Assembly: GCF_001685395.1 (NCBI RefSeq)
Contig: NZ_CP014167.1
Location: 248,001-312,000 of the forward strand
Length of the DNA stretch: 64,000 nt
DNA from: Paenibacillus yonginensis
Lineage (GTDB): Bacteria > Bacillota > Bacilli > Paenibacillales > Paenibacillaceae
Reading direction: 5' to 3'
The notes beneath the pieces were generated by a model, which saw only the letters and a list, made by a program, of their open reading frames with translations, was not told the DNA's origin and ran no database searches. Positions 44,465 through 51,806 of this stretch are shown piece by piece. The stretch's first letter is position 1, and every line of letters begins with the position of its first letter. A program made the position numbers and the translations under genes.

Positions 44465-44670
44465 GGGTTTCTCCTCCTTCAAATATAGTCCAAAATGAAA
44501 CGGTTATTCCTTGAACATTTAATAAACGTCTGCCCCATTCCTGAACCAGGGAGGATTATCTATTTACCCCTCTGGTAAAATTTGATAATGTTAGTTTGTG
44601 TTTTATGAAGGAAAATAAGGAGAGACGGTGGACAACGCCTGATGAATATAACCAAGCTCAGGGGTGGCGA

Positions 44671-46584
44671 ATGAAGTATTTGTTAAAAGCAGTGGTGTTT
44701 ATTTTAGTTGCACTGATTATGGGTGCGGTTATTGTGCCGGCCGCAGATTGGAGCGACCAAGCCGGGGACAGCACCAAAATCAGCACCTGGCAAGTTTGGC
44801 AGGTCAACTCTTTAATACCGGATATGTCGGAACAGCAGCTTGAACAGGTCGGACAGTGGCTTCAGGCCGACGCTGCCCACCCGCTGCCTGCAGGAAGGCA
44901 AAGCAGCGGCCGTACGGAGTCGATGTGGATTCGGGTGACTTTGCCTGCGGCAACTGGGAATGCGGCCATCATTATCCGTAAACTTTATGGAGAACGGGTC
45001 AGAGTCCTGTATGATGACAAGGTGATTTACAGTGTGGATCACCCGAGCGGCCGTGATGCCAACAATCTGTTGCTGCCCGTTAAACCGGCTGATGCTCCCG
45101 GGCTTCAGACCATTTACATAGGTGTCTCTTCCAACAGCGGCAGAATCGGTCTGCATGAAGATGTGCGGACCGGAGCTTTTATACCTCTGCTTATTGATTT
45201 TGTTAAAAAGGATTTGTCCGATTTCGTGCTGGGAAGCGCCTTTATCTTTATTTCGGTCATTATGCTGCTATGCACATTGTTTCTGAATGAAGCTAATATC
45301 CGGGGCTGGCTGGCCTTGGCTGTGATCATTTTATGTATAGGCGTCCTCGTCATTACGTATTCGCCCTTTCTGTACACCTACTACGGACAATACGAAGCTT
45401 TCTATTATAACCTGTTTGATACAGCCCTCTTTGTGTTCCTGCCCGTGTTTATCTTTTATGTAGAGCAGATTTTTGATAAGGAAAAATATGTGGTAATTAT
45501 CCGGATCAGCCGGATTTTCCAGACGGTATATTCCCTGATTTGTTTTGCGCTGCTCCTGCTCAACCGTTTGACGGTATTCGGCATTCAGTCTACATATGAT
45601 GAAGTAACAGGTACCCTTCTTGGATATGTGATGATTGCCGAACTTGCTTTACTGGTGCTTTTTGCTGGCTGGAATGCTTTGAGAGGCAGCAAGGAGGGCA
45701 TTATTTTCACCATCGGGTTTGCGATCCTTGCGTTAACGGGTATAGGCGAGCTGATTTTCTATTATGCCAGCGGCCAGCAGTACCGGCTGGTGCTGTGGAA
45801 ATGGGGGGTGCTTTGTTTCGTCATTTCTCTCATCATTATTCTGGGCCGGAGATTCGCTCGAAATCATGAGCAGGTCGTGGAGTATTCCCGCAAACTGGAA
45901 ATGTTCAATAATGAACTGCAGCGTTCGGAGAAAATGGAAATTATAAGCGTGCTCGCCGCTTCCGTTGCTCACGAGGTCCGCAATCCGCTTCAGGTCACGC
46001 GGGGCTTCATCCAGCTGCTAAGCGAGAAACAGCAGAAGGGGCAGGACCGGGTTTATTTGGATCTGGCTCTTGAAGAACTGGATCGCGCTTCGGGAATTAT
46101 TACGGACTTTCTGACCTTCGCCAAGCCGGAAGGAAGCAAAATCCGCAAGCTGAATGTTAGCGAAGAGTTCAGGCATATCGAAGGGATTTTGCAGCCGATG
46201 GTCCATTTAACAGGCGGGAAAATTGCCGTAGATATTCCGTCTGATCTTAGCGTCATGGGGAGCTCCTCCAAATTTAAACAGGCCTGCATCAACATTATCA
46301 AGAACAGCATTGAATCCTTCCAGGGAGAAGGGGAGATTCTCGTTTGGGCTTACGAGGTTAACGCGCATGTATACATTCATATTAAGGATAATGGAGAGGG
46401 GATGACAGAAGAGGAAATGGGCCGACTGGGAGAGCCGTATTTCTCCAATAAAACAAAAGGAACCGGATTAGGACTGATGGTCACTTTCCGGATTATTGAG
46501 GCCATGGGGGGAACACTGAATTTCTCAAGCGAAAAAGGCAAAGGAACCGAAGCTGTGCTCCGGTTCCCGTCAGGCGGACCCTGA
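44671..46584 (+). CDS. Membrane sensor histidine kinase, 7TMR-DISM type
   Basis: A sensor kinase of about 637 residues: a first helix or signal anchor (KYLLKAVVFILVALIMGAVI), an extracellular domain of about 170 residues, seven membrane helices, a short coiled coil, then the HisKA box ASVAHEVRNPLQ (phospho-acceptor His434) and HATPase motifs (IIKNSIESF, DNGEGM, KGTGLGL). The H-box resembles Spo0-pathway kinases rather than ComP/DegS types. No response regulator adjoins it. The start is uncertain: the ATG at 44605 is in frame but lacks a ribosome site. It converges on the RiPP precursor gene with 37 nt between stops. Confidence 0.88.
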   Translation: MKYLLKAVVFILVALIMGAVIVPAADWSDQAGDSTKISTWQVWQVNSLIPDMSEQQLEQVGQWLQADAAHPLPAGRQSSGRTESMWIRVTLPAATGNAAIIIRKLYGERVRVLYDDKVIYSVDHPSGRDANNLLLPVKPADAPGLQTIYIGVSSNSGRIGLHEDVRTGAFIPLLIDFVKKDLSDFVLGSAFIFISVIMLLCTLFLNEANIRGWLALAVIILCIGVLVITYSPFLYTYYGQYEAFYYNLFDTALFVFLPVFIFYVEQIFDKEKYVVIIRISRIFQTVYSLICFALLLLNRLTVFGIQSTYDEVTGTLLGYVMIAELALLVLFAGWNALRGSKEGIIFTIGFAILALTGIGELIFYYASGQQYRLVLWKWGVLCFVISLIIILGRRFARNHEQVVEYSRKLEMFNNELQRSEKMEIISVLAASVAHEVRNPLQVTRGFIQLLSEKQQKGQDRVYLDLALEELDRASGIITDFLTFAKPEGSKIRKLNVSEEFRHIEGILQPMVHLTGGKIAVDIPSDLSVMGSSSKFKQACINIIKNSIESFQGEGEILVWAYEVNAHVYIHIKDNGEGMTEEEMGRLGEPYFSNKTKGTGLGLMVTFRIIEAMGGTLNFSSEKGKGTEAVLRFPSGGP

Positions 46585-46621: not shown

Positions 46622-46867
46622 TTAAGGGTTCCACATGGCTTGCGGCTGGACATTAGCTTCAAGCACAGAAGAAGGGTTTGGAGGAAGCACCAGATAAAAC
46701 TCGTCGGCGTTCTCCTCAACGGTGCGGACTTTAATGTGATCCGGAAGGGAAATACCTAAAAATTCCTGAATAGTTCCTTTCGGATCGGACAATAACTTGC
46801 TTTTGAAAGTAGGATCTTGCCAGGCCTTCTGAATAAGCTGAGATTGAAGAAGAGCACCAGTTGACAT
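46622..46867 (-). CDS. RiPP precursor peptide with NHLP (nitrile-hydratase-like) leader
   Basis: An 81-residue peptide. Residues 10-65 match the NHLP leader pattern closely: LIQKAWQDPTFKSKLLSDPK, then GTIQEFLGISLPDHIKV and EFYLVLPPNP. Such leaders, related to nitrile hydratase alpha subunits, precede the core of many ribosomal natural products. The presumed core is the 16-residue tail SSVLEANVQPQAMWNP, with Trp79 third from the end and no Cys, Ser-Thr cluster or GG site. AAAGGGTG precedes the ATG. The class I isoprenoid enzyme gene lies 80 nt upstream on the same strand. Maturation and export genes are absent. Confidence 0.85.
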   Translation of the reverse strand: MSTGALLQSQLIQKAWQDPTFKSKLLSDPKGTIQEFLGISLPDHIKVRTVEENADEFYLVLPPNPSSVLEANVQPQAMWNP

Positions 46868-46947
46868 ACGAATTCACCCTTTCAAAATTGGTTATATTTT
46901 CCTATTTAGTGTACCATTAATAGAGAAAGATAGCTAGAGAGAATTTA

Positions 46948-47898
46948 TCATTTGACCTCGTTTTTTTTCTCCCATTTAGACAGAAAATAAGACAATCCTC
47001 CAGCTTCCAGCAGCTTTTTCTCCGCTTCGATTTGAGAGGCTCCCTGCTGCAGATTGTCCAGCAGAAAATAGTAGAAAGCATAGAGCTCCGGAACTAATGA
47101 CCGGATCTGACTTACCGTGGGTTCCCATAAAGCTGCACGCTCTGCAAAACCGGACAAAACCCCATAGGTATACAGCGCTTCGCGGATGTTCTCCTTTGAC
47201 AGCGTTTGAGAAGCAGGCAATCCCAGCTTGCTGCGGGATAAAGCAATCAGACTGTTATAAGAGCTTTCCTCCAGATCCTTCTCCCAATCCTCCCAGTCAT
47301 CCAGCATTTGCAGCACTACCAGCGTTTGGTCGACCGCCTGTTCGGTTGCGGGGATGTGTTCCTTGCTGCCCGTGTTCAGAAGCAGGCCAGTTGCGGCCAG
47401 CTTGACCAGAGAAGCTTTGTGGCCCATTCTGACCGGATTCTGGTGGAACCAATCCTGCTCGTTCTCCCCGCTTACAGCTTCGGCCCATTGGAACAAATAA
47501 CGTTTATAAAACCTCCAGAAATCCGTGGCTGCCGGGAAAATTTCCGCATAAAGCCCATGAAACTCCTCATGCAGCAGAGCAGACAGCGGTAGAACCGTAT
47601 GGAGTTCGGTTCCAGGCTTGTCCATCGCCTCATCCTGCAGATGAAAGGCCATCATGCCGAAAATATTAGCCAGGCATAGATGCCTGCTGAGACGGCGGTC
47701 CTGCCCTGCGGCGGGTTCCATCCAGAAGGGCAGCAGAAAGCAGATATAGTTGGTAGGTACCTCCCGCCTGGTTATATCAAAGCCTTCCAAATACCGCAGA
47801 GCTTGTCCCTCAAAAGGGCTGTTCCACGAGCGGATCCGCCTGCCGGCCTCTCCGAACACCACTTTCAAATCCTGTTCATAACGTTTGTACCATTCCAT
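46948..47898 (-). CDS. Class I isoprenoid synthase-fold enzyme (possible peptide prenyltransferase)
   Basis: A 316-residue all-helical protein. Two acidic motifs fit the class I isoprenoid fold: LQDEAMD (Asp89, Glu90, Asp93) as a DDxxD variant, and LDDWEDWEKDLEESSYNSLI (Asp200-Asp208) as the second metal site, which also recalls the NSE motif of terpene synthases. Lys/Arg residues for diphosphate are scattered. It is not a clear match to polyprenyl synthetases, squalene synthases or YtpB. Placed ahead of a small precursor with a C-terminal Trp, it occupies the position of ComQ. GGGAGGT precedes the ATG. Could instead be a terpene synthase. Confidence 0.7.
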   Translation of the reverse strand: MEWYKRYEQDLKVVFGEAGRRIRSWNSPFEGQALRYLEGFDITRREVPTNYICFLLPFWMEPAAGQDRRLSRHLCLANIFGMMAFHLQDEAMDKPGTELHTVLPLSALLHEEFHGLYAEIFPAATDFWRFYKRYLFQWAEAVSGENEQDWFHQNPVRMGHKASLVKLAATGLLLNTGSKEHIPATEQAVDQTLVVLQMLDDWEDWEKDLEESSYNSLIALSRSKLGLPASQTLSKENIREALYTYGVLSGFAERAALWEPTVSQIRSLVPELYAFYYFLLDNLQQGASQIEAEKKLLEAGGLSYFLSKWEKKNEVK

Positions 47899-48076: not shown

Positions 48077-48700
48077 TTACCACATTTGAGCGAGACCGAT
48101 GAGAATAAGCAGCACGCCGGAGATAATCGTTGCCCGGCTTCCCAGCTTTTCGGCTGCATATTTTTTGCCGAACCAGGCGCTTAATGCAAACAATAAATAA
48201 CTGAATATGCCTACAGAGAGGGAGGTCAGCCAGATGTTCAAATCCGTTACTCCGGCATTAAATCCTCCGGCCAAGGCATTCATTGCCAAAGCGATGCCTA
48301 ATATCAGGGATTCGCTGAGGCTGATCGACTTTGAGCTGTCCTTATCCGCTTCTTCCGGATTGCGGAGGAGGCGCGAGAAATGACCTGTGCTTTGGGCTGC
48401 TACCGTTTCGGATTCGGGAATTTGTTGTTCTTTGGACGATTGCAGAAGTACCCAGATTCCGACCATAATAATTACGGCAGAGCCGATGATATGGGCAACC
48501 CAGGGGTGAATCCACAGCGCGAGCAGGCTGCCGAAAACGCCGGACACCAGCGTACCCAGAAAGGAAATGAAGGCAACAGCCAGATTGGAGTACCAGGGGA
48601 TCCGGATCTTCCGGACGCCATAGGCGATGCCGACTCCGGCGTTGTCGAGATTTGAGGCCAGGCCAATGGCGAGAATAGCCAGCAAATGGTATGAAGACAT
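48077..48700 (-). CDS. ytaF: Sporulation membrane protein YtaF (MntP-like)
   Basis: A membrane protein of 207 residues with about six helices. The opening LLAILAIGLASNLDNAGVGIAYG and the repeat LILGIALAMNALAGGFNAGV, each with a conserved polar Asn and Asp in the helix, are typical of the YtaF/MntP manganese-exporter superfamily. A cytoplasmic loop of about 55 charged residues divides the halves. YtaF is sporulation-linked in Bacillus; its substrate is unknown. It is separated from the RiPP pair by 178 nt. Confidence 0.85.
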   Translation of the reverse strand: MSSYHLLAILAIGLASNLDNAGVGIAYGVRKIRIPWYSNLAVAFISFLGTLVSGVFGSLLALWIHPWVAHIIGSAVIIMVGIWVLLQSSKEQQIPESETVAAQSTGHFSRLLRNPEEADKDSSKSISLSESLILGIALAMNALAGGFNAGVTDLNIWLTSLSVGIFSYLLFALSAWFGKKYAAEKLGSRATIISGVLLILIGLAQMW

Positions 48701-50497: not shown

Positions 50498-51806
50498 AAA
50501 AGGGACTTCACCCCAACTTGGAGAAGTTTTCAAGTGACCAAACCCAAAAACCTCAAGGATGGAGGAAGTCACTTTGTATATTCTCCAAGAATGTCTGTTT
50601 TCCTTCGAAGAACTTTTAAAAATTCAACCCAAGGAGAGATTGCCGATCTTCTTCAGCTCTCTCGATCTGAGACCGTATGCCAAGGAACTGAGAAGCCGTT
50701 CACCCCGAGGCGCTGAGGGATACTGCAGACAAGGTATTCTACGAGCACTCTTGGCTGCGCCGCTTGAAGGAATAAGTACCTTTTCAGGGTTGCATAAGCG
50801 TTTGGATACGGATCTCCGGTTTCGTTATCAGTGTGGTCTTCCGCTGGATCGAGAAGCTCCTTCCATATCCACATTAAGCCGAGTTTTCTCAGAACTGACG
50901 AGAAAGGACTTGGCAAAACGGCTTTTTGAGGATTTGGTCACACGCTGTCAGCAGGAAGGTATCATAGAAGGCAGTAACGTCGCCATAGACAGCGCCGCTC
51001 TCCGCGCTTACGAGAAAAAGCAGCCCAAACGCAAAAGCGAGCAAACGGGTAATGCGAACTGGGGCGCAAAAATTGATTCCTTCGGCAATAAAATCACATG
51101 GTTTGGTTACAAAATTCATCTGGCGGTCGATACGAAAAGTGAATTGCCGATCGCCTTGGAAGTAACGCCGGCGCATGTCAATGATGGAGAAATGGCGCCG
51201 GGCCTGATCGAGAAAACAGCGTCCAGGACGAGCACACGATTTTTCATACTCGATGCGGGCTACGACCAAATGAAAGTTTATGAGGCCGCCCGCAACGTCA
51301 AGGCACAAGCCATCATTCCCCTTAATCTTCGGGGGGAGAAGGAACCGCCTGCTGGCATGACCTCGAACGGAACACCGTGCTGTTCCATGGGTTATGCGAT
51401 GACATACTGGGGAGTTGACGGCGATATGCATAAATTTCGCTGCCCGCATGCCACGGGTAAAGTCGACTGTCCGCTTGGCATGGCTGCCTGCTCGTCTTCA
51501 AACTATGGAATGGTCGTCAAAGTAAATGCGAAGGATGATCTCCGGCGATACAGCATCCCTCATCGGGATACAAAGCGTTGGAAGGAACTTTACAATGAAC
51601 GAACCAGCGTAGAACGCTGCAACTCCCGATTGAAAACCTATTTGACGGCAGACGCCGCACATGTCCGGGGCATTCAGAAAGTCACAACTCACCAGTATTT
51701 GAATGCCATTGTTCTGCTTGCATCTGCGCTCGCCGTTTCTCATCATTCAAAACGGGCTGCCGCTTAAAAAACGAGCTGTTCTAAAATTCTGCAAGTCTGC
51801 CCTTTT
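50498..51806. mobile_element. Insertion sequence, about 1.3 kb, DDE transposase
   Basis: One transposase gene bounded by imperfect inverted ends. Left AAAAGGG (50498-50504) and right CCCTTTT (51800-51806); further in, ACTTGGAGAAGTTTT on the left matches ACTTGCAGAATTTT on the right (reverse complement), offset by about 8 bp. I could not find a clear target duplication, so the exact ends are approximate. Confidence 0.6.
50574..51767 (+). CDS. IS transposase, DDE type (IS1182/IS5-like)
   Basis: About 397 residues. The N-terminus (FSSLDLRPYAKELRSRSPRG, RQGILRALLAAPLEGISTFS) is the DUF772-type helical domain, followed by an RNase-H-like DDE core: VAIDSAALRA (Asp), FFILDAGYDQMKV (Asp) and ERTSVERCNSRLKTYL (Glu). 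A cysteine- and histidine-bearing insertion (HKFRCPHATGKVDCPLGMAA) precedes the last motif. The frame is intact, so the element may be active. I chose TTG 50574 because GGAGG stands 8 nt upstream; the in-frame ATG at 50559 has no such site. Confidence 0.85.
   Translation: MYILQECLFSFEELLKIQPKERLPIFFSSLDLRPYAKELRSRSPRGAEGYCRQGILRALLAAPLEGISTFSGLHKRLDTDLRFRYQCGLPLDREAPSISTLSRVFSELTRKDLAKRLFEDLVTRCQQEGIIEGSNVAIDSAALRAYEKKQPKRKSEQTGNANWGAKIDSFGNKITWFGYKIHLAVDTKSELPIALEVTPAHVNDGEMAPGLIEKTASRTSTRFFILDAGYDQMKVYEAARNVKAQAIIPLNLRGEKEPPAGMTSNGTPCCSMGYAMTYWGVDGDMHKFRCPHATGKVDCPLGMAACSSSNYGMVVKVNAKDDLRRYSIPHRDTKRWKELYNERTSVERCNSRLKTYLTADAAHVRGIQKVTTHQYLNAIVLLASALAVSHHSKRAAA

Follow-up and report, generated by a model that had tools for sequence, protein, structure and literature searches.

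The genes palP, palX and palQ, which lie together in the 64,000-nucleotide stretch of Paenibacillus yonginensis DNA analysed here (the window), form in all likelihood a prenyl-peptide system of the PalPXQ type, a reading to which we assign a probability of about 0.82. The locus is best read as ComQXP-like prenyl-peptide signalling in which the receptor kinase is of a seven-transmembrane (7TM) type and the acceptor rule is altered; prenylation is strongly inferred, the signalling role inferred only. The three-gene system itself is already known from Paenibacillus alvei, for which PalP (histidine kinase), PalX (NHLP precursor) and PalQ (tryptophan prenyltransferase) have been described (Miyata, Ito and Fujinami 2023, PMC10853753), and a 2026 review covers PalX and PalQ (PMC13290415). 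New are the co-inheritance of the kinase, the breadth of the system across Paenibacillales, and the frequent, fast-changing tails behind the acceptor tryptophan that break the published substrate rule. The original prediction for this DNA, made from the enzyme and the peptide, is partly supported: its observations and the kind of chemistry it proposed stand, while its claim that such a pairing had never been described is contradicted by these two publications.

PalX and PalQ as a predicted peptide-prenyltransferase pair

The palQ gene (46948..47898, minus strand) encodes a 316-residue protein that resembles trans-isoprenyl diphosphate synthases (trans-IDS) and is predicted to act as a peptide tryptophan prenyltransferase. 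Located 80 nt downstream on the same strand, palX (46622..46867) encodes an 81-residue NHLP-leader precursor, in which the predicted acceptor Trp79 is followed by Asn80-Pro81. Both the spacing and the sizes agree with the original prediction, which had overlooked the tryptophan near the C-terminus. By eye, Shine-Dalgarno-like sequences precede the starts of palQ (GGGAGGTG) and palX (AAAGGGTG). A terminator-like hairpin with a 12 bp stem and a T-run (46542..46568, minus strand), placed inside the 3' end of palP, could serve the palQ-palX transcript; it comes from a pattern scan only, which found 6 such sites in the region against 4.4 expected by chance. A search of the peptide with TIGR03793 (leader_NHLP), as had been proposed, gave a match over residues 7-69 well above the cut-off (E 1.3e-18, 66.6 bits versus 50.9). 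PalX can be divided into this leader (about residues 7-69), a variable C-terminal region and W79. When compared to solved structures, the peptide matches nitrile hydratase alpha chains, as NHLP leaders generally do. PalX is the only NHLP peptide in the whole genome, and the C39 peptidase family PF03412 has no match anywhere in it, which leaves the strain without the classical route of NHLP export. This extends to the entire genome the earlier remark that no ABC-peptidase gene lies near, and it sets the system apart from classical NHLP RiPP clusters with their C39 peptidase-containing ABC exporter. PalX of the window shares 80 of 81 residues with that of the nearest relative (G009), the sole change affecting the last one (WNP versus WNS), and the gene differs by 18 synonymous codons (dN 0.005, dS 0.43). 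Judged by these substitutions, purifying selection on palX is very strong. For palQ, the same comparison yields 75% identity and a dN of 0.143.

None of the NCBIfam or Pfam families reached its cut-off with PalQ, so family-model annotation gives the enzyme no name; its homologues produced one weak match to Terpene_syn_C_2 and one to polyprenyl_synt. The two Asp-rich motifs pointed out originally, DEAMD at 89-93 and DDWEDWEKD at 200-208, hold the FARM (D89-D93) and the SARM (D200-D204-D208), with a putative indole-contact residue, Q197, ahead of the latter. D89, D93, Q197, D200 and D204 are invariant in 91/91 aligned homologues and in all 142 members of a larger set. The catalytic residues also carry the same numbers as in P. 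alvei PalQ, the assignment of the window enzyme to the PalQ type being based on shared features rather than on direct alignment to the P. alvei protein (K4ZRG6). PalQ is predicted to have a class I trans-IDS fold, as its AF2 model (mean pLDDT 93.3) matches trans-isoprenyl diphosphate and polyprenyl synthases (VIA Z ~23, 12-16% identity) and the tryptophan prenyltransferase Ord1 (PDB 9v4g, 9v4h, 9v4i; Z 19.5-19.6, 12-15% identity over the structural alignment). Ord1 shares with PalQ the fold and the Gln just before the SARM (PMC13290415), but it farnesylates free tryptophan and has no precursor peptide.

For P. alvei, it has been shown that PalQ moves C5, C10 and C15 chains onto PalX, and NMR showed the C5 chain to sit at position C3 of the indole ring of the C-terminal tryptophan, a forward prenylation yielding a tricyclic pyrroloindole; the PalX leader raises the activity and is not essential (PMC10853753). 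The window has the same three gene types, the same catalytic numbering and a conserved tryptophan near the C-terminal end of the peptide. Established here are which genes it contains and the features of their families, the conservation of the catalytic residues, the predicted fold and the co-inheritance, and the prenylation chemistry and leader-enhanced activity are known from the P. alvei homologue; our literature search found no assay of the window PalQ or any close homologue. Given these parallels, Trp79 is very probably prenylated. The original idea of a prenylated or terpene-decorated peptide, made by a ComQX-like arrangement with another leader class, thus holds in kind, as demonstrated for the homologue; decoration with a cyclised terpene finds no support, as the known product bears a linear prenyl chain at C3 of a tryptophan that has closed to a pyrroloindole.

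Residues after the acceptor tryptophan

The window PalX ends in VQPQAMWNP, which places Trp79 third from the end. P. alvei PalX, in contrast, ends exactly at the tryptophan (DNVRRFFW), and its PalQ rejects extensions: Ala residues after the tryptophan abolish activity (PMC10853753), whereas Gly around an internal tryptophan permits low but detectable activity (PMC13290415). Because the P. alvei enzyme is inactive with Ala in this position and the window peptide carries Asn-Pro, activity on the intact precursor should not be assumed. We therefore file the system, with its W79-N80-P81 end, as a variant of PalPXQ. A DNA pattern for the P. alvei core DNVRRFFW matched no genome in two samples of 395.

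Among 147 PalX peptides from 142 distinct loci, every one has a tryptophan within the last 7 residues. Eighty-eight end at this residue, counting one peptide ending in WGEW that is scored as internal in the tree (55 internal loci), and 59 (40%) carry 1-6 residues behind it, namely one residue in 40 cases, two in 17, five in 1 and six in 1. On the PalQ tree, the peptides switched between terminal and internal tryptophan about 11 times, or no fewer than 8 if only well-supported branches are considered, and 37 of the 40 loci in the window's clade have an internal tryptophan. Among 38 independent sister pairs that share at least 70% PalQ identity, the leaders are 95% and the ten residues before the tryptophan 81% identical, and 9 of the 17 tail-bearing pairs differ in their tails. 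The tails vary, whereas the leaders are almost frozen.

Either PalQ enzymes accept an internal tryptophan or the tail is removed first, a choice that sequence cannot decide. In the latter case, a carboxypeptidase would make Trp79 terminal before PalQ acts by the published C-terminal rule, the tail being a removable cap. Such trimming would reconcile the terminal tryptophan required by P. alvei PalQ with short tails that vary freely while the tryptophan is kept, and the many homologues already ending at this residue are in its favour, but no carboxypeptidase gene was identified in the locus. Moreover, 12 of the 17 two-residue tails have Gly in first position (the window tail starts with Asn), which fits the Gly tolerance reported for an internal tryptophan and suits direct use of the tailed peptide (PMC13290415). 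Trimming ahead of prenylation is, on balance, unlikely, though it deserves to be taken seriously. The cap would loosely resemble the aaX of eukaryotic CaaX boxes, which goes after prenylation, not before.

We also looked for PalQ residues behind the tolerance of tails. Alignment columns 33, 47 and 86 differ most between the tail classes and were discarded as candidates, since these differences may just follow phylogeny. K39 of P. alvei PalQ, discussed as meeting the C-terminal carboxylate, was likewise rejected as tail determinant: it is Gly in the window PalQ and does not separate the tail classes. Work is under way to turn PalQ into a tool for peptide lipidation, limited above all by the strict need for a terminal tryptophan (PMC10853753, PMC13290415), and the homologues collected here are natural candidates for prenylating a tryptophan with one to six residues behind it. 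On the Paenibacillus cellulosilyticus megaplasmid NZ_CP054613.1 (L121:5001-9424), the system takes a multi-peptide form, with five tandem PalX, ending in IWT, VWF, NWL, VWI and TWV, flanked by a single palQ on one side and a single convergent palP on the other.

A convergent sensor kinase as candidate receptor

The pair had been taken for a minimal system, a description that turned out to be incomplete. The overlooked palP gene (44596..46584, plus strand) is convergent with palX, about 37 nt from its stop, is inherited with the pair and encodes a sensor histidine kinase of at most 662 residues with Pfam HisKA and HATPase_c domains. Its layout comprises TM1, a beta-sandwich ectodomain, seven TM helices (7TMR-DISM-like), HisKA and HATPase_c, and the AF2 model of the sensor (pLDDT 80) has one N-terminal helix, the beta-sandwich and the seven helices. 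The order of ectodomain, seven helices and kinase is the same as in 7TMR-DISM receptor kinases. Fourteen of 25 PalP homologues match the Pfam family 7TMR-DISM_7TM (PF07695), for which the window protein scores below the cut-off (17.2 versus 29 bits), and the best NCBIfam match of PalP is the sporulation kinase KinD, far under its cut-off. At the structural level, the helices match Ste2 and other GPCR bundles (Z ~13-14), and the ectodomain matches GH2 jelly rolls (Z ~11) and, in Foldseek, the RetS sensor domain. These modelled similarities fit a 7TMR-DISM-like layout; the helical ones score close to what any helical bundle would be expected to give and point to no ligand. The Foldseek top match, human Wntless (E 1.6e-5), was set aside as a coincidence of layout, as its TM-score is 0.37 and it is absent from the VIA top 50. 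The window and G009 PalP are 86% identical, with a dN of 0.084 (sensor 0.104, kinase 0.051).

Compared to ComQXP, the window system has no adjacent response regulator, and its kinase is convergent and 7TMR-DISM-like; moreover, ComX is not known to have an NHLP leader. ComQ also lacks the second Asp-rich motif that the window PalQ possesses (PMC10853753). In other respects the Bacillus ComQ-ComX-ComP system is alike, combining a class I isoprenoid-fold enzyme, prenylation of an internal tryptophan, an adjacent sensor kinase and a variable peptide end (in part from PMC10853753). It is this parallel, together with the gene linkage, that suggests PalP as peptide sensor. We lean towards PalP being the receptor of the prenylated peptide, for which we found no test in the literature; the five genomes that keep a PalP-like sensor without PalQ count against it.

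In the proposed working of the system, PalX would dock on PalQ by its NHLP leader, and PalQ would ionise a C5-C15 diphosphate, probably geranyl or farnesyl, at the Asp-rich motifs. The chain would pass to C3 of the Trp79 indole, whose NH would be held by Q197 and the SARM aspartates, and the prenylated indole would close to the tricyclic pyrroloindole. An unlinked cellular protease would then remove the leader, leaving a short prenylated C-terminal peptide; in P. alvei lysate, PalX is cleaved between T72 and D73 (PMC10853753). The linked 7TMR-DISM-type kinase PalP would be the most likely receptor and might signal into the Spo0F/Spo0A phosphorelay. Response-regulator-like ORFs within ~5 kb are confined to 4 of 91 loci, and the nearest response-regulator match in the window genome is ~18 kb from palP. 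Because PalP has no response regulator nearby and a sporulation-kinase-like HisKA, output via Spo0F/Spo0A is possible, a tentative guess with some support. The pattern TGNCGAA, tried as a loose Spo0A-box, is enriched in L001, but this was set aside, the sites having been counted irrespective of promoters. Within this scheme, the donor chain length, prenylation of a tryptophan two residues from the end, export, the receptor role of PalP and the output pathway are predictions.

RiPPs with NHLP leaders are often antibacterial. The PalX product might likewise be a peptide antibiotic or membrane-active lipopeptide instead of a signal, with PalP sensing something else, for example envelope stress or sugar. 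The likeness of the PalP ectodomain to GH2 jelly rolls and the RetS sensor domain would suit such a role, and tryptophan prenylation raises the antimicrobial potency of test peptides (PMC13290415). However, no dedicated exporter is conserved beside the trio, the genome is devoid of a C39 peptidase, and the combination of one linked kinase with variable peptide ends resembles ComQXP. An antibiotic function is thus improbable to our mind, and we retain prenyl-peptide signalling as the preferred reading.

Co-inheritance of the three genes across Paenibacillales

Having surveyed relatives for conserved adjacency, as the original prediction had proposed, we found a PalQ homologue in 90 of 149 genomes, representing 22 of 49 genus groups, and a PalX-like peptide at 90/90 of these homologous loci. 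Occurrence of PalX at every locus from so many genus groups indicates that the pairing is not due to chance. By a scripted test that included the window, palX immediately follows palQ, in the same orientation, at 87 of 91 loci; among the four exceptions, two have palX beyond an intervening kinase, one is inverted and one reflects an over-extended ORF call. A convergent PalP-like kinase is likewise present at 87/91 loci. Of the remaining four, one has PalP in another orientation, and three, all from one genus, have it ~6 to 16 kb away. Overall, the PalP sensor region occurs in 95 of the 149 genomes, 90 with and 5 without PalQ, while PalQ alone was seen in none and 54 have neither (Fisher p 3e-35, shared ancestry not corrected for). 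In five genus groups where the system is otherwise present, some genomes lack both. This near-perfect co-inheritance of PalP provides a testable case for cell-cell signalling by this chemistry across Paenibacillales. A terpene or prenyl diphosphate synthase of housekeeping or secondary metabolism with a coincidental neighbour peptide, the objection foreseen originally, can be rejected as hardly credible despite the trans-IDS-like fold and the weak family matches noted above, given that the enzyme always comes with PalX, that its undetected state in 59 of 149 relatives shows it not to be housekeeping, and that the invariant Q197 of tryptophan prenyltransferases and the biochemistry of the P. 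alvei homologue speak against it.

The surroundings of the trio are much less stable. A ytaF-like sporulation membrane protein (48077-48700, minus strand) lies upstream of palQ on the same strand and is found near the trio in 36/91 loci. Taken together, the other window neighbours (ytaF, tatA-like, dps, chemoreceptor and others) persist in just 10-36 of 91 loci, and the trio is therefore held together beyond general synteny. A DDE-type transposase (DUF772 and DDE_Tnp_1; 50559-51767, plus strand), likely an insertion element, is located ~2.7 kb beyond palQ. The Rfam search gave no match. A phage or viral origin was dropped, as no match turned up in phages or viral contigs, and so was a spread beyond Paenibacillales, since in a 398-genome sample of the phylum matches were confined to the window's family.

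Of the PalP-like kinases in the five genomes without PalQ, four were inspected with their loci (L209, L210, L211 and L212, in G063, G103, G053 and G055), which revealed neither PalX nearby nor a hidden PalX or PalQ alongside; these kinases possibly represent receiver-only strains or kinases with another ligand. An extension of the signalling reading is that a fast-changing label, made up of the tail and the few residues before the tryptophan, is kept on the mature peptide and read by PalP, which would give lineage-specific private signalling with PalP-only genomes as listeners. This would be similar to Bacillus ComX pherotypes, apart from the leader, which differs, and the GPCR-like nature of the receptor kinase, and it needs a PalQ that accepts an internal tryptophan; we regard it as speculative and rather doubtful. 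Two tandem PalP-like kinases accompany one palX-palQ pair at L072, L081 and L083, and tandem PalP-like kinases also occur in many loci of named Paenibacillus species, for example L135, L148 and L149. Finally, the Tolypothrix sp. PCC 7910 plasmid NZ_CP050446.1 (L122:1-1115) encodes a remote relative of PalQ (23.6% identity; profile E 6.7e-33), immediately followed by the gene for an Os1348-family peptide of the NHLP clan whose tryptophan is internal (HVNWRVD). We did not count this enzyme as a member, as the Gln before the SARM (Q197) seems by eye to be missing; judged by sequence, the Tolypothrix pair is possibly a cyanobacterial counterpart of PalX-PalQ.
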